Below are positions 1,531 to 58,891 of a DNA stretch of 64,000 nt, piece by piece. The notes below the pieces were generated by a model that did no database searches, was not told the DNA's origin, and worked only from the letters and a program-made list of their open reading frames with translations. Position 1 is the stretch's first letter. Every line of letters begins with the position of its first letter. Made by a program: the position numbers and the translations under genes. The DNA comes from Cardinium endosymbiont of Dermatophagoides farinae (GTDB taxonomy: Bacteria > Bacteroidota > Bacteroidia > Cytophagales > Amoebophilaceae). The stretch is taken from the NCBI RefSeq assembly GCF_007559345.1, contig NZ_VMBH01000001.1, forward strand, positions 1,194,869-1,258,868, given 5' to 3'.

Positions 1531-3030
1531 ATGATATTATATAATATCCCTCTTCTAATGGTATTGGCCTTTTTATTGTTGACCCTAATGGTAGGTCTCT
1601 ATGTTAGCAAACAGGCAACTACGTTTCGACAATATGCTGTGGGTAATAAGCGGTTTCACACGACGAGCTTAGTGGTTACAATATTGGCTACAATCTTTGG
1701 AGGAGGTGCCCTGATGCGTGAAGTACCCAAGGTCTATGAATTTGGTATCCATCGCATAGCCTTTTTATTTACCATGCCAGTAACTTTTTGGATAATCAGT
1801 CTACTGGGGCTGCGTATGGGGCCATTTATGGCGCATCTTTCTATTGCAGAGACGATAGGTAGCGTATATGGTAGGTATCCAAGAGTGATTGCTGCGCTAT
1901 TAGGTATCTGTTTTTCTATTGGTGTTGTGGCCATTCAGATCAATGTAATGTCCGCTGCTATTGGCATGTGTATAGGTTCGATTGACCCTCGTATCGTGAC
2001 TGTACTGGCTACCTTAATCCTTATTGTCTATTCTATGTTTGGGGGTGTTCGTGCCATTACTATTACTGATATATTGCAATTTGCAACCTTTACTATTATT
2101 CTTCCCCTTGTCATTAAGTTTGTATTTGTAAAAACAGATCAGTCATTCTTAGAAATTATATTGTTTTTGCAAAAACAAGAAAAATTTCAGTTTAGTAGAC
2201 TCTTCCATTTTGATAAAAAATTAATGAAACTTGTTTTTGATGATCTATGTATGATATTTATTCTAGCCCCCTCAGTGCTACAAAAGGTGTATATGGCTTC
2301 TGGTCCGATTCAAGTCTACAAGGTTTTTTTGCGTACAACGCTTTTTAGTGTTATTATAACGGCCTGTATCGTGTCAATTGGTCTGCTTGCTTTTGTAGGA
2401 GCTCCAATACTATCCGTAACAGAAATTTGGCCATATATTCTGGCTGATATATCACCTGCCTATACAGGATGTCTGGTCATTTGCTTATTAGGGATGACCA
2501 TGTCCACAGCTGATTCCAGCTTACATGCTGCTGCCATTATGGTGAGCCATGATATGGTGGAAAGCATTCGGGGTGTAAAAACAGTCCCCTATATGCACCA
2601 GCTTCGACTGGCTAAATTAACTGTACTAGTTGCTGGTCTACTCGCTATGGTCGTAACGGTTTATTATCCTAACCTATTTGAGTTAAGCAGTTTTGTGTTT
2701 AGCTTTTTTATTTCTTTTTTTATAGGCGCAGTAACGCCTCTTTTTATTTTAGCTGTTTTTGGTTTTCGGGGTAGCACGTGTACAGCTTTAATCGGAATGG
2801 CTATGGCTATACTTGTTGATTTGGCTTTGGAAAATTTTATTAAACCTAAAGTAGGCGTAGGCTTCGAGTTTTTTCCAGCAGTAGCCAATGGATTGGCTAT
2901 GATGGCTGCGCATTATCTATTGCCCCAACCGGCTGATAAAGGGTGGATTGGGCGAAATGATCAACAGAAAAGAATGCAGCAGCTGATACGCGCGTTTAAA
3001 AAATATAAAAAAAGCATAGACTTGGAATAA
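1531..3030 (+). CDS. Sodium:solute symporter family (SLC5/SSS) protein
   Basis: The 499-residue integral membrane protein has about 13 hydrophobic segments. Family-typical sequences include YAVGNKRF near residues 35-42, FGGVRAITITDILQF near 170-185 and the late MSTADSSLHAAA segment near 325-336. The substrate cannot be read from sequence; proline, pantothenate and sugars are all transported by this family. The C-terminus (about 465-499) is a basic cytosolic tail. It resembles the transporter half of the 1120-residue fusion protein at 34267-37629, so the two look like paralogs. The 205 bp upstream hold no gene. Confidence 0.85.
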   Translation: MILYNIPLLMVLAFLLLTLMVGLYVSKQATTFRQYAVGNKRFHTTSLVVTILATIFGGGALMREVPKVYEFGIHRIAFLFTMPVTFWIISLLGLRMGPFMAHLSIAETIGSVYGRYPRVIAALLGICFSIGVVAIQINVMSAAIGMCIGSIDPRIVTVLATLILIVYSMFGGVRAITITDILQFATFTIILPLVIKFVFVKTDQSFLEIILFLQKQEKFQFSRLFHFDKKLMKLVFDDLCMIFILAPSVLQKVYMASGPIQVYKVFLRTTLFSVIITACIVSIGLLAFVGAPILSVTEIWPYILADISPAYTGCLVICLLGMTMSTADSSLHAAAIMVSHDMVESIRGVKTVPYMHQLRLAKLTVLVAGLLAMVVTVYYPNLFELSSFVFSFFISFFIGAVTPLFILAVFGFRGSTCTALIGMAMAILVDLALENFIKPKVGVGFEFFPAVANGLAMMAAHYLLPQPADKGWIGRNDQQKRMQQLIRAFKKYKKSIDLE

Positions 3031-24544: not shown

Positions 24545-26305
24545 ATGAAAAAATTACCGATTGGTGTTAGTAATTTTCATAAGCTGGTATCTAACGATTA
24601 CCTGTTTTGTGATAAGACGGCTATGATTGCTGATTTCCTAGAAAAAGGCGATGAAGTTACCTTAATTACCCGTCCTCGCCGTTGGGGAAAGACACTTAAT
24701 ATGTCTATGTTGCAACATTTTTTTGCCTCAGAAGTAGATGGGGTCACTACAGCAGGTTTATTTGATGATTTAGCCATTGGTAAGTTAGAGGGAGGTAAGT
24801 ACATTAGAGAACATCAAGGAAAGTACCCTGTCATTATGATCAGTTTTAAGGATGTCAATGCAGATGATTTTCAAGGGGCTTATAATGCGGTGTATGAATT
24901 GATATCGACTCTTTATGAATCCTATACTTATTTATTTAAAAGTAATAAGGTTAATCAAATACAGCTAAAAAAACTGTATAGAATTATAAATAATGAGGCC
25001 AACCAGCAACAGTTAGAAAAATCTTTAAAACTTCTTAGTCAATGCCTCTACCAACACCATGGCCGGAAGGTTTATATTCTGATAGATGAATACGATACAC
25101 CACTCAATAAAGCTTATGGTAATAAGCCATACTTGGGCGCTATGGTCGCATTTATGCGTAACCTGTTTAGTGATGCCTTAAAAGACAATACTATACTAGA
25201 AAAAGGGGTATTAACGGGTATATTGCGTGTTTCCAAGGATAGTATGTTATCTGGGTTGAATAACCTAGAAACCTATACCATACTAGATGAAGATTATAGT
25301 GCTCGTTTTGGTTTTAGTGAAACGGAAGTTTCCTCTTTATTTAAAGCAAAAGATTTGGCTACTTCTATGGAAGAAGTAAGAAATTGGTACAATGGTTATA
25401 AGGTAGGCCACTTGGTTATGTATAATCCATGGTCTATTATTTCTTGTATCAATAGATCAGGTCGTCTTGATGTTTACTGGGTCAATACAGGCAATAATGA
25501 TTTAATCAAGCAGTTGATTTTTGCCTCGAATGAGGACATTAAAGAAGCATTTGAACAATTGATGCAAGGAGCAGCGTTAATGGTATCTATCGATAAGCAT
25601 CTTGCTTTTGATCTACTGCCTAGAAATGAAACTGCTTTCTGGAGCCTTTTGCTATTTGCCGGCTATTTGACTTTGGAAAAGAGTAGTTTAAGTCAAAATA
25701 GTGATTTATATGATTGTCTAGTTAAGATTCCCAACAATGAAGTACGTAGGCTTTACAATCGTTTTTTTGAAGAATGGTTGGTGGGCAAATTTCCTAGTCA
25801 GTCTAGGTATCATAGCTTTTTAACTCATCTTTTAGTTGGTAACGTAAATGATTTTACCCGAGATTTAAGTGCATACCTCTTAGATAGTGCTAGTTTTTTT
25901 GATACTAGTTCGACAAAACAAGGGGAAAGTTTTTACCATGGTTTCGTTTTAGCGATGCTGGCTAGTATTAGTGATAGGTACGCTATACGCTCGAATCGAG
26001 AAAGTGGCTTTGGAAGATATGATCTACTACTAATCCCTAAAAAAGAGAGCGCAAAGGCATTGTTGTTGGAATTTAAGCAGGTGCGTAAAGAAGAAGAATT
26101 AGAAACTGCTTCTAAACTTGCCTTAGATCAAATACAAGCACAAGCCTATCATACGGAGTTATTGCAGTATCCTCATGTTCAGGAGGTGATAGAGGTAGGC
26201 ATTGCTTTTTCTGGGAAGTCAGTTGTGGCTGCCTATGCAACGTATGACTTAGTTCGCAAACAATCTGGTTATGTTATTTTAACGGATAGATATGGTCAGC
26301 AATAG
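24545..26305 (+). CDS. AAA-ATPase-like / PD-(D/E)XK nuclease domain protein (divergent subgroup, copy 3)
   Basis: The 586-residue protein starts KKLPIGVSNFHKLV, the common start of the PF09820-type family. Walker A-like is RPRRWGKTLNMSM, Walker B-like is VYILIDEYDTPL, and the nuclease core is SGFGRYDLLLIP with LLLEFKQV. It differs clearly from copies 1 and 2 (RRWGKT instead of RRFGKS) and lacks their shared leader, so it belongs to another subgroup. The function is unknown. Confidence 0.87.
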   Translation: MKKLPIGVSNFHKLVSNDYLFCDKTAMIADFLEKGDEVTLITRPRRWGKTLNMSMLQHFFASEVDGVTTAGLFDDLAIGKLEGGKYIREHQGKYPVIMISFKDVNADDFQGAYNAVYELISTLYESYTYLFKSNKVNQIQLKKLYRIINNEANQQQLEKSLKLLSQCLYQHHGRKVYILIDEYDTPLNKAYGNKPYLGAMVAFMRNLFSDALKDNTILEKGVLTGILRVSKDSMLSGLNNLETYTILDEDYSARFGFSETEVSSLFKAKDLATSMEEVRNWYNGYKVGHLVMYNPWSIISCINRSGRLDVYWVNTGNNDLIKQLIFASNEDIKEAFEQLMQGAALMVSIDKHLAFDLLPRNETAFWSLLLFAGYLTLEKSSLSQNSDLYDCLVKIPNNEVRRLYNRFFEEWLVGKFPSQSRYHSFLTHLLVGNVNDFTRDLSAYLLDSASFFDTSSTKQGESFYHGFVLAMLASISDRYAIRSNRESGFGRYDLLLIPKKESAKALLLEFKQVRKEEELETASKLALDQIQAQAYHTELLQYPHVQEVIEVGIAFSGKSVVAAYATYDLVRKQSGYVILTDRYGQQ

Positions 26306-29854: not shown

Positions 29855-30001
29855 TAAATTGCTGGAAAGTGGGAAAAGTAATGTCTGAAACATGTTGCTA
29901 ATCAGGTAAATTTATACAATAACCTGGAAGAAAAAGAAGAACATCTTTAGTACAGAAAACAGCCTTAACGTACAATAATTTCCTATATCCAAGGAGACCC
30001 C

Positions 30002-30978
30002 TATACCAGAAAAGTTCTCTAGTTCTGCACCTACTTTGAGACGTTTATAGCACTCTTCTATATGCCATCTTAACCCATAAGCCTTCTTGAGGCTTTCTAA
30101 TGTAAATTTTTCGCGGTCAAAAAGTGAGGTAGTCAATACCTCTACTGTGCTATTGGATAACATAAAGGATACCACTCTTACCTTTTGGCTGATCTTTTTA
30201 TCTTTACTCTCTACGATACAATCAAAATCTGACTCTCCAGATTGAACACGTTCCCATAGCTTTTTATAATGGTGTCCTTGCACACGAAAAATAAAATCTG
30301 CTTTATAATCATTGTGTTCTTTCATAAACTTTGCAGAAGTGTACCCACGATCATAGATAAACAATAATTTATCTTGCTTTAAGGAACGCATTTGATCAAC
30401 CACTTCAGGTAGTTGTGCTTCTGCCAATGTCTGCTCCCCTACATCCCAAGTTCCAAGTCGAGCATTACAAATCAGAGATGTACACAAATCCACAAATAGA
30501 GAAATCCTAGCTAAGGGCGGCATCGTTCCATTGGTCCCATTTGGTTTAAAACGTCCAAATTCAGATATGATTTCTCCGGAAGCAGGTAAGTGCATAGAAG
30601 AACCATCTACTGCAATAACCCTATGTTCTTTCCATGTTCCATAAGTAGGATCATTTTGGTAAGCTATTCGGATGCTGTCTTCCAATAATTCTTTAAAGCC
30701 AGTATGAGCAAATTTGTACCTTGCTTTAGAAAAAGCTTGCTTGAAGGGGGGATTTTCGATGTTAATGGTTCCATAAGTTCACACTCTATACCTAAACTTC
30801 TCTTAACCAGCTGTAAAATGGTACTAAATACTATTGGGAAACTAAGTTTCCTATTGCGTATAAAGGTATTTTTGCCTCTTGAATGTCTTTGCTGAAACAC
30901 TTGTGCATAAACTTTATTTTTAACATTGGAAACGAAGTTTTTTCCTAAAAATTTTTCATAAAAAAACGCATTATACAT
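30002..30978 (-). pseudogene. IS4-family transposase, frame-shifted and 3'-truncated
   Basis: Two frames: 30978-30664 (N-terminal part) and 30685 to about 30002, the second with the DDE motifs VIAVDGSSMHLP, LLFIYDRGYTS and the YREK-like GLRWHIEECYKRLK. They join if one base is added to the G6 run at 30746-30751 (C6 in the coding sense). The 3' end is cut by the Tn3 right repeat, after KVGAELENFSG. No target repeat or left end was identified. Confidence 0.88.
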
Positions 30979-33701: not shown

Positions 33702-34112
33702 TTGGTTATGGGAAAAAGCAGCCTGCCCAAATGCAGTAGACTAACCAACCGCAAGCATATAAAAATGCTTTTTCAAGAAGGAGCTATTTTAAAGCTATAT
33801 CCTTGTACCATCTTTTACCTCCAAAAAAAGAAAGAAGACTTTTTATGCAATAAAGTTCTTTTTTCTGTCTCTAAACGCCATTTCCCTTCTGCTGTCCAAC
33901 GCAATAGAGTAAAGCGTTTGCTTAGGGAAGCCTATCGACTCAATAAATATATATTGGATCATGCGTTAGATACCGCCCGTTCTGAATTTGCCTTTTTAAT
34001 AGGATATGTGTATACTGGAAAACAGGAAGAGATCCACTATCCTATTTTGAATAGGGCTGTTATTAGATCGTTGCAACATTTTAGCGTTTTGCTAGATGAA
34101 GAACTATCTTAA
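33702..34112 (+). CDS. rnpA: Ribonuclease P protein component
   Basis: RnpA assists the catalytic RNA in maturing tRNA 5' ends. The signature VSKRHFPSAVQRNRVKRLLREAYR is present in about residues 50-75 (RNRVKR core). The start may be at 33702 or 33708. The usual downstream yidD/yidC is absent; the next gene is the symporter-HD fusion. Confidence 0.93.
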   Translation: MVMGKSSLPKCSRLTNRKHIKMLFQEGAILKLYPCTIFYLQKKKEDFLCNKVLFSVSKRHFPSAVQRNRVKRLLREAYRLNKYILDHALDTARSEFAFLIGYVYTGKQEEIHYPILNRAVIRSLQHFSVLLDEELS

Positions 34113-34266: not shown

Positions 34267-37200
34267 ATGGGTTTAGACAGTATTATTTTTATTCTTTTTT
34301 TATTGATCCATCTATTTGTTGGCATTCGTGCTATTAAACATTCCACTATCCAACATACGCATTGCGCTACGCCCCATATTATAGCAGCTATCCTGGCCAT
34401 AACCTATGGAGGGGAAGTACTCTGTAGTCCGCTTGATATGGATTGCTTATTACGTTTGGCAGGTAGTATGATCAGCTATTTTATAATAGGCAACCTGCTG
34501 GCACATCGTTTGCATCTTTTTTTAAATAATCGTTCAGTAGCAGAAATAATGGGGCGATGCTATGGCAATGCTATTCGAAAAATTGTAGCCATATGTGGCC
34601 TATTGCATAGCGCTTCGGTAGTTGCCATTCAATTTAAAATGCTTTCAATGGCGATATGTTGGTTTTTTGCTATTCAGCCACATTATAGTCTGCTTATGGC
34701 AGCGCTCTTTGTGATGTTTAGTGTTGGGTCAACTATCATACAACCACTGGTGCTGGTACGTGTAGTACGTTGTGCTTCCTTTGGAATATTCCTACCCATT
34801 GTCGCTTGGACTTTATGGAAATGTATGGTAAACCAATATAATGTTGATCAAGCCAATCTTGCTTTAGCCATTAAGGACTCTTGGAATAGCTTGATTCATG
34901 GTCGTCTTGGTCTACTGGACTATATTATATATTTTATTGTTTGCTCTATACCCGCTTTCTATCCTGCTCAGGTAGTTCCTATGCTCATTTCCGCAAATGC
35001 CACCCAAATCAAGCGTTCCTTTAATGGTGCTGGTTTCTTTGCATTAAGCATAAACTTGTTTTTGTTATGGGTTGCCGTGTTGGTACAGAACAATGCTGGC
35101 AAGTCGGTCCTATCAGCTATTCCCTTAACCATTTTTGATACCCATCTAGGGCTAAAAGGGATGTTGATGATAAGCGTTGCTGCCTTAACCATCTCTACAG
35201 CAGGTGCCAACTTGCATGCAGCTACTGGTTTAATAACCGATGACCTACCGGATCTATTCAAGTGGGTTAAAAAGCCCATTATCCATCTGGCTATAGTAGG
35301 TGTGATGGCAATGTTTCTTGCACGATACACTACATACCAAATGATATGGATGACCATTTTTTTGTTTAAAGCTGTTGTGAGCCTACCATTGCTATGCTCT
35401 TTAATGGGTGTTTCCCTACATGCATGTACAGTTTTAGTAGGGATGCTAGCAGGTGGTGTAACCACTATCTTGTGGTTTTGTTTTGCACCTAATCCAGGTC
35501 TCAATAGCTTGCTTCCAGCCATTGGAATGAATCTACTAAGTATTATTGTCATCCAGTTTTTCAAGGGCAAACGCACCCCAGACCAGCATCACTTAACCAA
35601 TAGCTTGCCTCAAGACCCATTCCCTAAGCCTCCACTATTATGGAAGCAGTGGCCTAAATATATTACCTTTCATAGGATGAAGCAATTCAATTTTTTCGAT
35701 TACCTTCAGAAACAATTACCTAAAGATAATTTATCCTATATACTTTTTAGTTTTTATATTCTGCTGACAGGTTATGGTTCTTTTTATACTTTTTCCGGCA
35801 ATCCCATATGGCATGCTATATTAGAAGTGCTTATTCTATTTCCAAGTCTCTTGGTTGCCACATTTTTCTTAGTATATATTTTTTCCGCCCAATCATATGT
35901 TCGTAAAATTGTCTCAATAATGTGGCCATTGAGCCATATTTACTTTCTTTTCTTAGTAGGTACTGGCATGACCATACTTAGTAAGTTTGCCCATTTACAT
36001 AATATTATTTTTATACTCAACCTCTTCTTATCTCTTTTTATTACCCCATTGAGTGTCATCTTGTTTGGATCTATACTCAGTATTATAGTAGTGTCGATCT
36101 TACTCCATTATATGGACAGTAATATCACATTAATCGATTGCTTTTTAGACCTGAACATAAATATTGCTTGCGTAATATTTATGCTATTCATTTTAGTTGG
36201 TGGCTTTTTGTACCATAACAACAGCTTAGGCAAGCTCTTATCCATCATACAGGTGTTAACCAGTGAAAAGGAAGAGCAAAATGCAAGGCAATTTTTTAAT
36301 AAGCAACAAGTAGAAGCACTTGCTTATGAAAGCAGCTATATCATATGCCAATTGAACAATTGGCTCACTCGATTAGAGGAATCAGATCAGCGCTTGCTTG
36401 CTTATTCCGCCCAAGCCACTAGGTTGAATAAGTATTTTAACAGCGTTTTTCAACATTTAAAGCATAATCTCCATTTAGTCACCAATTGGATTAGCATGGA
36501 TCAACTATTAGCCGAATGTTTCGATGCTATAAAAATTAGCAATATATACGATACGCCCTATGTAGTGATTAATACAAAACACCTTTATATGCAGTGTGCC
36601 ATAGAAAGTATAAAAAATCTAATTATCAGCAGTTTATATTCCTGCAGTGCATACCAATCTCTACATAGCCATCAAAAAAAGGATATCTATATGTATATAG
36701 ATGATACACAGTTGGGCTATCGGTTAACCCTTTTACAGGGTAAATTGCAAAAAATCAATGCGATCCGATTTGTGATTACAACTGCAATCAGGCTACCTAT
36801 GATACGTCCAACCTATAAGGTCGCAGAGATGGCAGATATTCAGATTTTAGCTGACAGTGAAGAAAAAATAGACTTAGGAAACCAACATATTGTCCATGCA
36901 CATTACGGTTACTATGAGCGGCATGCTTCTGAATCAGAAATCACTCATTTATATGTAATACCTGTAAACGTCAAAGAGATTACTAAGGCATTTGCGGCCC
37001 TTTCACCTGTTGTGCATACACAAAAAATGGCATTGGACCCAATAAGCATAAAGGAAGAAGCCGCATTTTTAGAACAAGTAAAAAAGAAAGCAGGGCTTGA
37101 TGTTGCGCTGGTTATGGATGCATTACAGTTGATTAAAGTTTATTATACCACGCAAAGAAGAAAAACAGGAGAACTATTTTACTTACATCCCATGGCAGTG

Positions 37201-37629
37201 GCCTCTATTTTACTCACTATAACCCAAGATGCTAATGTTATTATTGCTGGCCTGGTCCATGATGTAGTACAAAATACCCCGCTGACAGAAGCAGGTTTAA
37301 CTACCCTATTTGGTGCTGCTATTACACAGATTGTATCAGCTTCAGCGTGCTTAGAGAAAGAACTACCAGGCCAAACAGATGACTATACTGCCTATATCCA
37401 AGCTATAATGGGTGATACAAATCATGATGCGATACTGGTTAGGCTGGCAGATGTGTTACATAATGCAAGAACCATTTCTGGTCATACTATTGAAAAACAG
37501 ATAGAAAAAGCAAGGTTAATCCAAAAATTTTACCTGCCATTGGCCATGCACATACAACTAGTCGATATAACCCATGAATTACAGTTACATAGTGAAAAAG
37601 TATTAAATATAGCCATGGGAAAAGAGTAG
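34267..37629 (+). CDS. SLC5-type symporter fused to a RelA/SpoT-type HD domain with altered ED dyad
   Basis: The 1120-residue protein has an SLC5/SSS transporter part (about 1-440, including STAGANLHAATGLI). A second membrane part of about 6 segments (about 490-665) resembles the spacer of symporter-histidine kinase proteins. A cytosolic region (about 670-900) has no clear family, and an HD domain follows (about 935-1110). HD ligands are H974 in FYLHPMAVAS, H998-D999 in GLVHDVVQNT and D1062 in VRLADVLHNARTI. Spacing from H974 to H998 equals that in Rel hydrolases (H53 to H77). The catalytic E-D that should be at 1002-1003 is Q-N. A sensing rather than hydrolysing role is an inference. No kinase H-box or ATP-binding motif was found. 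Confidence 0.85.
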   Translation: MGLDSIIFILFLLIHLFVGIRAIKHSTIQHTHCATPHIIAAILAITYGGEVLCSPLDMDCLLRLAGSMISYFIIGNLLAHRLHLFLNNRSVAEIMGRCYGNAIRKIVAICGLLHSASVVAIQFKMLSMAICWFFAIQPHYSLLMAALFVMFSVGSTIIQPLVLVRVVRCASFGIFLPIVAWTLWKCMVNQYNVDQANLALAIKDSWNSLIHGRLGLLDYIIYFIVCSIPAFYPAQVVPMLISANATQIKRSFNGAGFFALSINLFLLWVAVLVQNNAGKSVLSAIPLTIFDTHLGLKGMLMISVAALTISTAGANLHAATGLITDDLPDLFKWVKKPIIHLAIVGVMAMFLARYTTYQMIWMTIFLFKAVVSLPLLCSLMGVSLHACTVLVGMLAGGVTTILWFCFAPNPGLNSLLPAIGMNLLSIIVIQFFKGKRTPDQHHLTNSLPQDPFPKPPLLWKQWPKYITFHRMKQFNFFDYLQKQLPKDNLSYILFSFYILLTGYGSFYTFSGNPIWHAILEVLILFPSLLVATFFLVYIFSAQSYVRKIVSIMWPLSHIYFLFLVGTGMTILSKFAHLHNIIFILNLFLSLFITPLSVILFGSILSIIVVSILLHYMDSNITLIDCFLDLNINIACVIFMLFILVGGFLYHNNSLGKLLSIIQVLTSEKEEQNARQFFNKQQVEALAYESSYIICQLNNWLTRLEESDQRLLAYSAQATRLNKYFNSVFQHLKHNLHLVTNWISMDQLLAECFDAIKISNIYDTPYVVINTKHLYMQCAIESIKNLIISSLYSCSAYQSLHSHQKKDIYMYIDDTQLGYRLTLLQGKLQKINAIRFVITTAIRLPMIRPTYKVAEMADIQILADSEEKIDLGNQHIVHAHYGYYERHASESEITHLYVIPVNVKEITKAFAALSPVVHTQKMALDPISIKEEAAFLEQVKKKAGLDVALVMDALQLIKVYYTTQRRKTGELFYLHPMAVASILLTITQDANVIIAGLVHDVVQNTPLTEAGLTTLFGAAITQIVSASACLEKELPGQTDDYTAYIQAIMGDTNHDAILVRLADVLHNARTISGHTIEKQIEKARLIQKFYLPLAMHIQLVDITHELQLHSEKVLNIAMGKE

Positions 37630-37775: not shown

Positions 37776-38927
37776 ATGGGTTTGACAAAAAGTATACAGC
37801 GCATCAAGTCCGTAAGTTTATCAATTCTTGTATGGACGAATATTTTACTAACTACTTTGAGTTGCATCAAGTTTCATACGTCATATGGCCTTGTAGAACC
37901 CGCTACTTCTGAAACAGAAAAACCCCTAAAGCTACAAAGCTTAAAGAGTTTGTCTTTAGCAGCTAATATGGGTACTATCATTACTAAAATTACTAAAGAT
38001 AATCAAGACGTAGTGTTCCATGCGTTTTTCGAAAATAAAGATCTTCAAGAAAAGTGGAGTAAGTTGTGTAGTAGTGGACATTACCATCAGTGTATGGGAA
38101 ATCTTGCTAGGCTCATTGAGGATAATAAACTTACATTAGGGATACTAGATGGTAACGGATATGCTCCTATACATTACGTAGCACAAAACCTTAACCTAAA
38201 AGATCCGCATGTTATAGATCTTTTTGAGAAGCTACTTGACTATAGCAAAGCTTATGTAAATTTATTCTCTGAGCCTAGAGATCTTGAGCCCGGTAATACT
38301 CCTTTACATCTAGCAGCAGGGTATAATAATAACCCAGTGATCACTACGTTATTGTTATTGATAAATAAGCGTACTGATGTAAATCAAGAAAATGAGGATT
38401 GTAATACTCCTTTACAGCTAGCAGCTATGCATAATCATAACCCAGAGATAATTAGTATACTAAGAGCTAAGAGTCCTAAGGTAAATCATAAAGACATTTA
38501 CAGGAATAATCTTCTACATCTAGCAGCTAGGTGTAATGATAGTCCAACGGTCATTCAGGAATTAGCGGCTAGCGGTGTTGGTATAAATCAAAAAATCGTC
38601 AAAGATGGACTCCTTTACATGTAGCAGCATTTAATATTAATCTACCAGTGGTTAAAGAGTTATTAAATCTAGGTGCTAGAGTAAATAAAAAAATAAAGAC
38701 GGGGATACCCCTTTATATCTAGCCGTATGCCCCGATATAAACAAAAAAATAGATGATAATAATCTGCCAATCGTTCAGTTATTAATAAATAAGGGTGTTA
38801 AAGTAAATAAAAAAATAAAGCTGGAAAGACTCCTTTAGATACAGTAAAAGCTAACTCACCGATAGCTCTGATGTTGCAACAGTACAAAGATAAAGGATTG
38901 AAAACGAAAAATCTCAAGAGGGATTAA
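37776..38927 (+). CDS. Ankyrin-repeat lipoprotein, with three one-base frame breaks
   Basis: The start gives a lipoprotein-like leader (LVWTNILLTTLSC). Ankyrin repeats begin at about residue 125 (GYAPIHYVAQNLN, NTPLHLAAGYNNNPVITTLL, NTPLQLAAMHNHNPEIISIL, NNLLHLAARCNDSP). The frame is lost at A6 (38590-38595), A7 (38687-38693) and A7 (38809-38815). Adding one A at each continues TPLHVAAFNINLPVVKELL, TPLYLAVCPDI and TPLDTVKANSP, ending at 38927. A further added A near 38910 would extend it to 38977. Ankyrin proteins of symbionts often interact with host proteins. Confidence 0.8.
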
Positions 38928-39264: not shown

Positions 39265-40014
39265 ATGATGCATTTAAAAGGAAAAAAAATATTCATTACA
39301 GGTGCTTCACGCGGCATTGGCAAGGCGATTGCACTTAAACTAGCAGCGGAAGGAGGCGATATTGCTTTTACCTATTGTGGGTCTGATTTGGAAGCAGTAC
39401 AGGCTACAGAAGCGGCATTAAGCGCTTTTGGTGTACAGGTAAAAAGTTTTCATACAGATGCTGCTGATTTTCAGGCTACTGATAAGGCAGTAGCGGATAT
39501 GGTAGCAGCGTTTGGTGGGTTAGATGTATTGATTAACAATGCCGGCATCACGAGAGACAACTTGCTGCTGCGCATGCCAGAAGCCGATTGGGATGCGGTG
39601 CTGAATGTCAATTTAAAGTCTGTTTTTAACACGGTGAAGGCATCGCTAAAAACCTTTCTTAAGCAGCGCAGTGGTTCTATTATCAATATAGCCTCTATTG
39701 TAGGCATTAGTGGCCATGCTGGACAAGCCAATTACGCTGCGTCCAAAGCTGGTATGATTGGTTTAACCAAATCCATTGCTTTAGAGCTAGGCAGTAGAAA
39801 TATACGTGCCAATGTGATTGCACCTGGTTTTATAGCCACTGCTATGACCGATCAGCTTGAAGCATCATTACAGCAAGCATGGATGGAAAAGATTCCACTT
39901 AAGCGTGTCGGGTGCCCAGAAGATGTAGCAAACTGTGCACTCTTTTTAGCTTCTGATGCCTCAAGCTACATTACGGGGCAGGTGATTCAGATAGATGGTG
40001 GGTTGCTTACATAA
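39265..40014 (+). CDS. fabG: 3-oxoacyl-[ACP] reductase FabG
   Basis: Reduces 3-ketoacyl-ACP with NADPH in fatty acid elongation. The 249-residue short-chain dehydrogenase has the nucleotide motif TGASRGIGKAIA, NNAGIT, the catalytic Ser and YAASK, and the C-terminal VIQIDGG. It converges with fabD, the two being separated by a diverged repeat. Confidence 0.96.
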   Translation: MMHLKGKKIFITGASRGIGKAIALKLAAEGGDIAFTYCGSDLEAVQATEAALSAFGVQVKSFHTDAADFQATDKAVADMVAAFGGLDVLINNAGITRDNLLLRMPEADWDAVLNVNLKSVFNTVKASLKTFLKQRSGSIINIASIVGISGHAGQANYAASKAGMIGLTKSIALELGSRNIRANVIAPGFIATAMTDQLEASLQQAWMEKIPLKRVGCPEDVANCALFLASDASSYITGQVIQIDGGLLT

Positions 40015-56057: not shown

Positions 56058-58891
56058 TTGCTTTGTTACCTGAAGAACATAGGGATGATCCCAGATAAAA
56101 AATCACTACTTTCCGATTTTTTACTCAAGCATATCGCTAGCAGACTTAATTTATCAAATGAACTTTGGAAAGATTACGCATCAGGACGAGACACCACTCG
56201 CAGGGAACATTTAATAGAACTATACCACTATCTAGGACTAAAAAAATTTACAAAACAGATTCAAAATGATTGCATTTCGTATTTAATTCCACTTGCAAAA
56301 CGCACTGACAAGGGTATTCTTCTTGCACAAGAACTTCTAAAGTATATGCAGCGGAATTGCGTGATTATTCCCACTATTGATGTACTGGAGTGAACGTGCT
56401 CAAAGGCCATGGCTGCTGGTGATAAAATAGTATTCTCGGAACTGAATGCTCAACTTATATCAGAGCATAAGGTCAATCTAGACAGCCTTCTGATTGCATC
56501 AAATAATCATCTTTCACGTCTATCTTGGATTCTTCAACCTCCTGGTAAAATTAACGGAAAAAATGTATTACAGCACATTGAATGCTTGAATACGATCGTG
56601 GCAATAGACTTACCGGTAGGGATCGGACGTTTAGTTCATCAGAATCGGTTACTGAAACTGGCCCGTGAGGGTCGGAATATGAGCAGCCGAGATTTGACTA
56701 AGTTCTCATCAAGCAGACGATACGCTATTCTAATATGTGTGATTGAAGAAGCCAGAGCTACACTTACAGATGAGATCATCGATTTGCATGAGCGTATCTT
56801 GAACAGTATGTTCAGCCGGGCTAAAAGGACTCAGGCGGAGCGACTCCAGCAAACAGGTAAACTTATCCAGTCTAAACTGTACCAGTATATTGCTATTGGT
56901 CAAGCATTAACTGAAGCCCGTGAATCCGGAGAAGATCCATGGACTGCTATTGAACATGTTATGCCATGGCAAAAATTTATTATAAGTCTAGAAGAAACCC
57001 GTTTTTTGACCAAAAAAAGTAATTTTGATCCACTGCATATTATTATTGAGAAATATAGTACGTTACGTAAATACGCTTCAAGAATGTTGTCTGCGTTGGA
57101 ACTGAATGCCACGCCAGCTACACAGTCACTAGCCGAGGCTCTGACAGTCATCAGAGAAATGTATTATAAACAGTTACGAAAGGTCCCACCAATGGCACCG
57201 TTGGATTTTATTCCTGAAAGCTGGAGGAAAGTGGTTATTGCACCCACCGGAATAAATCGACAGTACTATGAATTTTTCGCTCTTAACGAACTGAAAGACG
57301 CGCTTCGTTCAGGGATATCTGGGTAAAAGGTTCTCGCCGATATAAAAATTTTGACGATTACCTCATTCCTAAAAAGGAGTTTAATAAGTTGATTCAGAAT
57401 CATCAGTTACCACTTTCTGTCCCTTTTGATTACAGTCAATATATTGGAAGTCGCCTAACATTATTGAAATCACGACTCGAAGAGGTAAACAAAATGGCCC
57501 TTATAGGTGATTTACCTAATGTTGAAATATCTAATAAAAGAGTAAAGGTCACGCCATTGGATAATAGTGTTCCTGCAGAGGTTTCACCGCTGACAGCCCT
57601 GGTTTATAGTATGTTACCTCATCCTAAAATTACAGAGATACTGGATGAAGTAAACGACTGGACAGCGTTTACTAACCATTTTTCTCATCTCAAAAATGAG
57701 GTCATCCGCCCTGATACTCGGCTCCTCCTAACCATTATCCTGGCTGATGGAATTAACCTTGGGCTAGGTAAAATGGCAGAGGCCTGTCCTGGAGTTACTA
57801 GATCTTCACTGGAAAGTATTCAGGCGTGGTATATACGAGATGAAACGTATTCAGCTGCTCTTGCTGAATTAGTTAATGCGCAGGGAAAGCAACCTATGGC
57901 GATATACTGGGGTGACGGTACTACATCGTCTTCAGACGGTCAGAACTTCAGAGTCGGAAGCCTTAGACGCTACGCTGGACAAGTCAATCCTAAATATGGA
58001 CAGGATCCTGGTATTCAGTTTTATACGCATATCTCTGATCAATACAGTCCATTTTATACCAGGGTTATCAGTCGGGTAAGAGATTCAACTCATGTACTCG
58101 ATGGCTTGCTGTATCACGAAAGTGATCTAGAAATCCGGGAACACTATACCGATACATCTGGTTTCACCGATCATGTATTTGCCATGATGCACCTACTTGG
58201 TTTTGAATTCTGCCCAAGAATTCGAGATCTACATGACAAACGACTTTTTATTCAAGGAAAAGCCCAACAATACCCTGGACTTCAGTCTATTATATCTTCG
58301 AACAGCCTGAATCTGAAAGATATCAAATCAAACTGGGCTGACGTGCTTCGTCTAGCCACCTCGATCAGCCAGGGGACAATTACTGCATCCCTAATGCTCA
58401 AGAAGTTGGCCAGTTATCCAAAACAGAACGGTCTGGCAAAAGCTCTCAGAGAAATCGGGAGAATAGAAAGAACATTACTCATGCTGAACTGGTTTCGAGA
58501 TCCAGCATTGCGTCGACGTGTACAAAAAGGGCTTAATAAAGGAGAAGCCCGTAATGCCCTTGCCCGTGCGGTATTTATGCACAGGTTGGGGGAAATCAGG
58601 GACAGAAATCTGGAAAATCAGAGCTACCGTGCCAGTGGACTAACACTGCTCACAGCTGCCATCACGCTATGGAACACGGTCTACATCGAAAGAGCTGTAG
58701 ACTCTCTGAAAAAACAGGGAATAAAAATCAATGATCAATTGTTATCACATCTATCTCCATTAGGATGGGAGCATATCAATTTGACAGGAGATTATATCTG
58801 GACAAGAAAGCGTAAAAAAACATTAAGTAAGTTCCGACCTCTACGACCGGCTAACATAGAAAAATACAAAAACAGCCTTAACGTACAATAA
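56058..58891 (+). pseudogene. tnpA: Tn3 transposase TnpA, 5'-truncated with a stop and a frameshift (copy 2)
   Basis: Relative to copy 1 it has CGA-to-TGA at 56391-56393 and GGGG-to-GGG at 57312-57314. It lacks the TA insertion of copy 1, so its frame continues through [15 protein letters not shown]. The rest (57389-58891) holds the intact DDE core. Neither copy is intact, but each is whole where the other is broken, except for the shared 5' loss. Confidence 0.9.

Follow-up and report, generated by a model that had tools for sequence, protein, structure and literature searches.

The window analysed here is a stretch of 64,000 nucleotides from the genome of the Cardinium endosymbiont of Dermatophagoides farinae (NZ_VMBH01000001.1, positions 1,194,869 to 1,258,868), a member of the Amoebophilaceae. 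It contains a gene in which a membrane transporter part is joined to a C-terminal HD domain of the Rel/SpoT type. At the position of the catalytic E-D pair of the (p)ppGpp hydrolases this domain carries Q1002-N1003, and we name the HD domains of the family by this pair of residues (ED, QN). The gene is made up of the following parts (window coordinates):

34267..37629, plus strand: transporter-HD fusion gene of the QN branch (open reading frame of 1120 amino acids; Pfam; alignment)
34267..35586, plus strand: SLC5-like symporter part, residues 1-440 (hydrophobic peaks; Foldseek on a low-confidence model; Pfam SSF matches of relatives)
35728..36246, plus strand: second membrane block, residues 488-660, sitting where CbrA has its STAC domain (5 hydrophobic peaks)
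36247..36450, plus strand: long helices at the place of the kinase dimerization and histidine phosphotransfer (DHp) part, residues 661-728, without H box (predicted structure, alignment)
36451..36978, plus strand: predicted catalytic and ATP-binding (CA) fold of histidine kinases, residues 729-904, ATP boxes absent (predicted structure, alignment)
37030..37626, plus strand: Rel/SpoT-type HD domain, residues 922-1120
37258..37275, plus strand: HDVVQN, residues 998-1003, with Q1002-N1003 where the catalytic E-D belongs (alignments)
37450..37455, plus strand: D1062, a kept metal ligand, and V1063, an arginine in the ED class (alignments)

The only Pfam match of the fusion protein is HD_4 (residues 952-1093, E 1.7e-16). 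NCBIfam spoT_relA matches the same C-terminal part, and a synthetase domain (PF04607) was not found in the protein by the Pfam scan. The predicted fold of the HD domain agrees with RelA/SpoT hydrolase domains over about 190 residues (PDB 7qpr, 6s2t, 1vj7), and the translation shows that H974, H998, D999 and D1062 are kept, as are R965-K966 and N1066. A preliminary description made from the letters of the window had reported the Rel/SpoT-type domain, these four ligands, the HDVVQN motif and the absence of a synthetase motif; its observation as a whole is confirmed, and its interpretation is partly supported.

The exchange of E-D for Q-N is conserved. A protein search gave 17 homologues (the source labels eight as Cardinium), and thus 18 aligned rows; two of these (P0014 and P0016) end before the HD domain and were left out of the motif count. 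Among the remaining 16 rows the pair is QN in eleven, KN in two, RN in two, QH in one and ED in none, which rules out a local sequencing error or chance, and all four ligands are kept in 15 rows. One gene of the QN type is found in each of the eight genomes of the same genus (seven with QN, one with RN).

For SpoT of Acinetobacter baumannii the accessible part of one study reports that substitutions at Y51, E82, D83 or N147 abolish hydrolysis and that alanine at K140 or R144 reduces it 5- to 10-fold (PMC9974481). When the positions are paired through alignments, Y51 corresponds to F971, E82 to Q1002, D83 to N1003, K140 to R1059, R144 to V1063 and N147 to N1066. Because residues on which hydrolysis by SpoT depends wholly or in part are F971, Q1002, N1003, V1063 and R1059 here, the loss of (p)ppGpp hydrolysis proposed in the preliminary description is well supported as a sequence inference, and we predict that the QN domain does not hydrolyze the alarmone. 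Its claim that binding is preserved fares less well: binding of (p)ppGpp is uncertain, because V1063 stands in place of the arginine even though R965-K966 and the metal ligands remain. The structure 6z3o, according to its title an E74Q mutant of a small alarmone hydrolase, was considered as a laboratory parallel and not used as evidence. The QN domain could instead be an active hydrolase whose chemistry or substrate has changed; it might act, for instance, on NADPH like Mesh1, or on an adenosine analogue. Such an enzyme would have N1066, R965-K966 and the full set of four metal ligands in place, and to go by the titles of structures 7smg and 5vxa there are related HD folds that use (p)ppApp as substrate or NADPH as ligand. 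We nevertheless regard it as quite improbable, as the substitutions at E82 or D83 inactivate SpoT and as some rows have K or R instead of Q1002, a variation that is ill-suited to a catalytic role.

Between the second membrane block and the HD domain Pfam gives no meaningful match. In a structure search with a predicted model of residues 640-1120 (36 alignment rows, predicted local distance difference test score, pLDDT, of 81) residues 729-904 match the CA fold of histidine kinases; this model replaced an earlier one of the full-length protein, built from 18 rows, with a mean pLDDT of 54 and values below 50 for residues 751-905. The preliminary description had supposed that the HD domain replaces the core of a symporter-histidine kinase, and this is ruled out by the structural match. 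The fusion protein is rather predicted to hold a histidine-kinase core without its motifs: the H, N, G1 and G2 boxes are absent from the frame of the window gene and from 10 other fusions (11 picked for this alignment from the 45 fusions in the tree described below), and they are present in all three aligned unfused homologues from genome G014 (genomes, contigs, loci and proteins carry our working numbers).

In the membrane part there are 13 hydrophobic peaks across residues 1-470 and five more across residues 521-649. The second membrane part of the preliminary description is thereby upheld, whereas its SLC5-type symporter has no Pfam SSF match of its own up to E 10. SSF is matched by six of eight scanned relatives (paralogues L019, L021, L023, L025, L045 and L047); the two without a match are L015, which is the QN orthologue, and L041, a shorter frame. 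The top Foldseek matches are CHT1, NIS and vSGLT, obtained with the full-length model of low mean pLDDT. The second block has no Pfam match and is membrane-like; a STAC domain was considered for it and is at most a candidate.

With a profile of the decayed kinase core plus the HD domain we compared 21 genomes of the same family, scoring at most 35 candidates per genome. Among the matches listed, fusions occur in 16 of the 21 genomes and none in G004, G005, G006, G014 and G016. Among 291 genomes of the order, the listed matches outside the family start no earlier than profile position 221, in or close to the HD domain, and in 395 genomes drawn from the phylum the window's own genome alone matched at E 1e-58. 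A scan of the genome collection, whose patterns lay in the HD domain, says little on fusions elsewhere, with 79 of 80 rows among the matches listed covering the HD domain with little before it; one further Amoebophilaceae record also spans part of the middle region. The own genome has 20 HD_4 places and G007 at least 44, partly in tandem arrays. Two such arrays were seen in G007 (about 1.2 Mb), one with four complete tandem fusion frames and one cut frame at each end (L124), the other with three complete frames and one cut (L125).

The 108 HD-bearing frames, reduced to 94 by dropping copies contained in others, fall into three active-site classes, namely ED with all ligands, QN or RN, and, within the window's genus, a ligand-less (FRY-type) class. 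Exceptions in the ED class are L140 of G011, with Y for H974, and L152 of G020, which keeps E-D but has lost ligands. In the ligand-less branch, which is found in several same-genus genomes, the ligands are exchanged near-constantly for R, Y, E/D/G, R/V/H, H/R/C/Y, E and D; its members are L047-L051, L053, L056 and L057 in the own genome and L168, L171-L173, L175-L177, L179 and L181-L183 in relatives. A tree of 45 fusions and three unfused kinases unites the eight QN rows in one clade with a value of 100 in the Shimodaira–Hasegawa-like approximate likelihood ratio test (SH-aLRT), and three changes suffice for the ED, QN and ligand-less states; it was made by a quick method without bootstrap, and nine rows of odd composition (including the QN row of G007), two long end branches and one ED row that may be falsely joined were flagged. 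An unfused arrangement is found on contig C535 of G014, where a 226-amino-acid HD frame with intact ED is followed after 120 bases by a separate frame of 467 amino acids that comprises the second membrane block and the decayed core, without symporter part or HD domain; close by, the opposite strand carries a symporter-kinase of 935 amino acids in which Pfam detects HATPase. This arrangement may be ancestral or derived.

The QN genes are under purifying selection, and their cytoplasmic part is more tightly kept than the transporter. In 28 gene pairs the ratio of nonsynonymous to synonymous substitution rates (dN/dS) by the method of Nei and Gojobori, with dS above 1 in many pairs, is 0.13-0.41 for the HD domain. 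The kinase-like part, with 9 pairs saturated, has 0.09-0.27; the second block, with 1 pair saturated, has 0.17-0.35; and the symporter part has 0.21-0.44. In the closest pair, G008 and G009, the values in this order are 0.15, 0.18, 0.23 and 0.28. The locus is also fixed: rnpA lies upstream of the QN gene in all seven other loci and fabG downstream in six, the contig of the seventh ending before it. These results bear on the explanation that the gene is a decaying family member heading for loss and that QN is drift. Many paralogues of the own genome do lie in broken or short frames, homologue P0017 has lost further residues, and the matched stretch contains one TAA in G007 and also in G011. However, in G007 and G011 the frame stays open from profile position 1 or 3 as far as 1113 of 1118 and in the other six further, and dN/dS is below 0.45 in every unsaturated pair, so that decay, already disfavoured, seems highly improbable.

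Synthetase genes are present in 18 of the 21 family genomes. In all 16 fusion genomes the synthetase part of RelA/SpoT keeps its D and Q (G003 has C for the arginine of AxR), and in all 16 its HD part is without a complete catalytic set. Examples are HDILKD and FAEYLRK in Amoebophilus asiaticus, whose Rel HD domain is without the E, the last D and the N, and LAPPFLQGL and QICDIIR in the own genome. G016, a genome without fusions, has a RelA/SpoT with intact HDVVED and LADRLHN. Among the matches listed G005 and G006 have neither a synthetase nor an HD_4 gene, G014 shows no synthetase match but an ED HD that stands alone, and G004 has a weak synthetase match and no HD_4 gene. The own genome was seen to have two RelA/SpoT-like loci (L001 and L002), of which one is split over two overlapping frames and the other has a 379-amino-acid frame that stops shortly past the synthetase part.

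In every one of the 16 fusion genomes, one or more frames that are fusions or derive from fusions carry an ED domain whose set is complete, and QN copies and ED paralogues are found together in all eight genomes of the genus. Because the hydrolase half of RelA/SpoT has lost its active-site residues, the ED paralogues likely destroy (p)ppGpp and would carry this hydrolysis for the cell. We put at a little short of an even chance a wider reading, in which the family has moved alarmone hydrolysis from RelA/SpoT onto membrane transporter-sensors: an SLC5 symporter-kinase would have lost its kinase chemistry, gained an HD output and multiplied, so that uptake sets (p)ppGpp breakdown, with the QN and ligand-less branches acting as non-cleaving sensors or brakes.

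Several observations call for caution here. The 16 fusion genomes are related, and so do not count as 16 separate events. Several genomes have short ED frames that stand alone, of about 200-250 amino acids (207 in G008, 225 in G000); of the six ED domains in the own genome, one is part of a full-length frame (L045, 1156 amino acids), the others being in frames of 162-773 amino acids; and many ED domains, namely those of the ED fusions outside the genus and of some inside, have F at the needed Y51 of SpoT. These points would suit an alternative in which the ED domains are not the (p)ppGpp hydrolases of the cell and small standalone HD proteins or an unrelated enzyme replace the RelA/SpoT hydrolase. 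We think this unlikely in view of G009, where all six HD_4 places are in frames of 749-1214 amino acids (one ED, one QN, four ligand-less), with the limits that this genome is estimated to be 94% complete and that the symporter part of its ED copy is without the first helices, the first about 130 profile positions missing.

For the QN fusion itself we tentatively favour the reading, to which we give somewhat less than even odds, that it is a sensor whose HD domain binds (p)ppGpp with its kept metal ligands, does not cleave it, and signals to the transporter by way of the decayed kinase core, or in the reverse direction. That the ligand is (p)ppGpp and is still bound, and the direction of signalling, we infer. 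Against a sensor it can be said that (p)ppGpp may be bound poorly or not at all, because K140, R144 and Y51 of SpoT are R1059, V1063 and F971 here. The distant homologue P0017 keeps only D999 of the four ligands, being without H974, H998 and D1062, and the third paralogue branch of the genus has lost the metal ligands altogether, so ligand binding is apparently not needed family-wide. Transport itself may also be lost, because the symporter part is the fastest-evolving part of the QN genes and falls below Pfam SSF detection. The main rival, somewhat unlikely in our estimate, is that the QN protein is a pseudo-enzyme partner which dimerizes through its kinase-type helices with ED paralogues and switches their hydrolase, alarmone binding being unneeded. 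The long helices kept at the DHp place, the co-occurrence with ED paralogues throughout the genus, and the lower dN/dS of the kinase-like part and the HD domain than of the symporter part in the closest pair would all fit such a partner, and there are precedents in RelA, which has no detectable hydrolase activity according to the accessible text of PMC9974481 and whose hydrolase domain is reported as a molecular switch (PMC8012599, likewise in part). The interaction is, however, putative, and a partner of this kind would not need to keep the metal ligands.

The neighbours of the QN gene in the window are:

33702..34112, plus strand: rnpA, upstream neighbour (Pfam PF00825)
39265..40014, plus strand: fabG-like gene, downstream neighbour (Pfam PF13561)

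An ankyrin-repeat gene (37776-38624) lies between the QN gene and fabG, and in five of the six relatives with fabG this gene begins at most about 160 bases past the end of the QN gene. Elsewhere the window contains an SSF-family symporter of 499 amino acids without HD part (1531-3030), an AAA-ATPase-like and PDDEXK_9 protein (24545-26305), whose DUF1703 type is reported as expanded in Cardinium cCpun in the part of PMC6387759 available to us, and Tn3-family and DDE transposase genes (57389-58891 and 29912-30685).

If our interpretation is true, the output of a two-component transporter-sensor would have been swapped, giving an alarmone-breaking (ED) or alarmone-sensing (QN) protein, and solute uptake and the stringent response would be linked directly within one protein. 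It would then explain why A. asiaticus and Cardinium keep sodium/solute symporters of unknown function in their reduced genomes (a transcriptome study, PMC8831229, reports 19 such symporters, stage-regulated) and why SpoT-type hydrolases have expanded in Amoebophilus (PMC3153485). Since the ED, QN and ligand-less branches are naturally paired, the function of a pseudo-hydrolase becomes testable.

Parts of this family have been seen before. For A. asiaticus the available text of Atkinson 2011 (PMC3153485) gives 15 RelA/SpoT homologues (RSHs), a Rel with both H and S and an expansion of rickSpo with H; this expansion very probably corresponds to the ED members of the transporter-HD family. There rickSpo is HD-only and the Amoebophilus Rel has an active H, whereas the members here are mostly transporter fusions of about 1150 amino acids, the window chain is unlike the rickSpo small alarmone hydrolases in not being HD-only, and the A. 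asiaticus Rel HD domain is incomplete. Brown 2018 (PMC6232779) lists 18 'spoT / sodium glucose cotransporter' homologues in Amoebophilus and 7, 3 and 2 in Cardinium cPpe, cEper1 and cBtQ1; the same family was thus seen, the accessible text being without anatomy, active-site classes or a link to the RelA/SpoT hydrolase. In a study of Cardinium, SSS/HD fragments figure as candidates for repeat elements (PMC12039267). Among open-licence PMC papers, as far as their accessible text goes (PMC12342168 and PMC3486910 included), none was found to describe the dead RelA/SpoT hydrolase, the QN branch or the decayed kinase core.

The HD domains of SpoT and Rel are alike to that of the window in fold, in H974, H998-D999 and D1062, in R965-K966 and in N1066, and differ in having E-D for Q-N and the 3'-pyrophosphate arginine for V1063; compared with the long RSH proteins Rel and SpoT, the window protein is without synthetase and is joined to a membrane transporter. 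Some Orientia genomes have one to four 'HATPase-SpoT hydrolase' fusion genes, likewise an HD hydrolase with a HATPase part, together with greatly multiplied spoT hydrolases and PutP-kinases (PMC10732058, accessible part); Orientia belongs to the Alphaproteobacteria, its fusions are described there without a transporter part, and we liken them by description only. A related architecture is that of the SLC5-STAC histidine-kinase transceptors CbrA, CrbS and RpuS, which in the available texts (PMC13022988, PMC9100948, PMC5715377) likewise consist of an SLC5 part, a linking block and a kinase-type core. The window protein differs from them in its second block, which is hydrophobic with five peaks whereas the STAC of CbrA is a bundle below the membrane (PMC13022988), in the absence of the kinase boxes, and in having the HD domain as its output.
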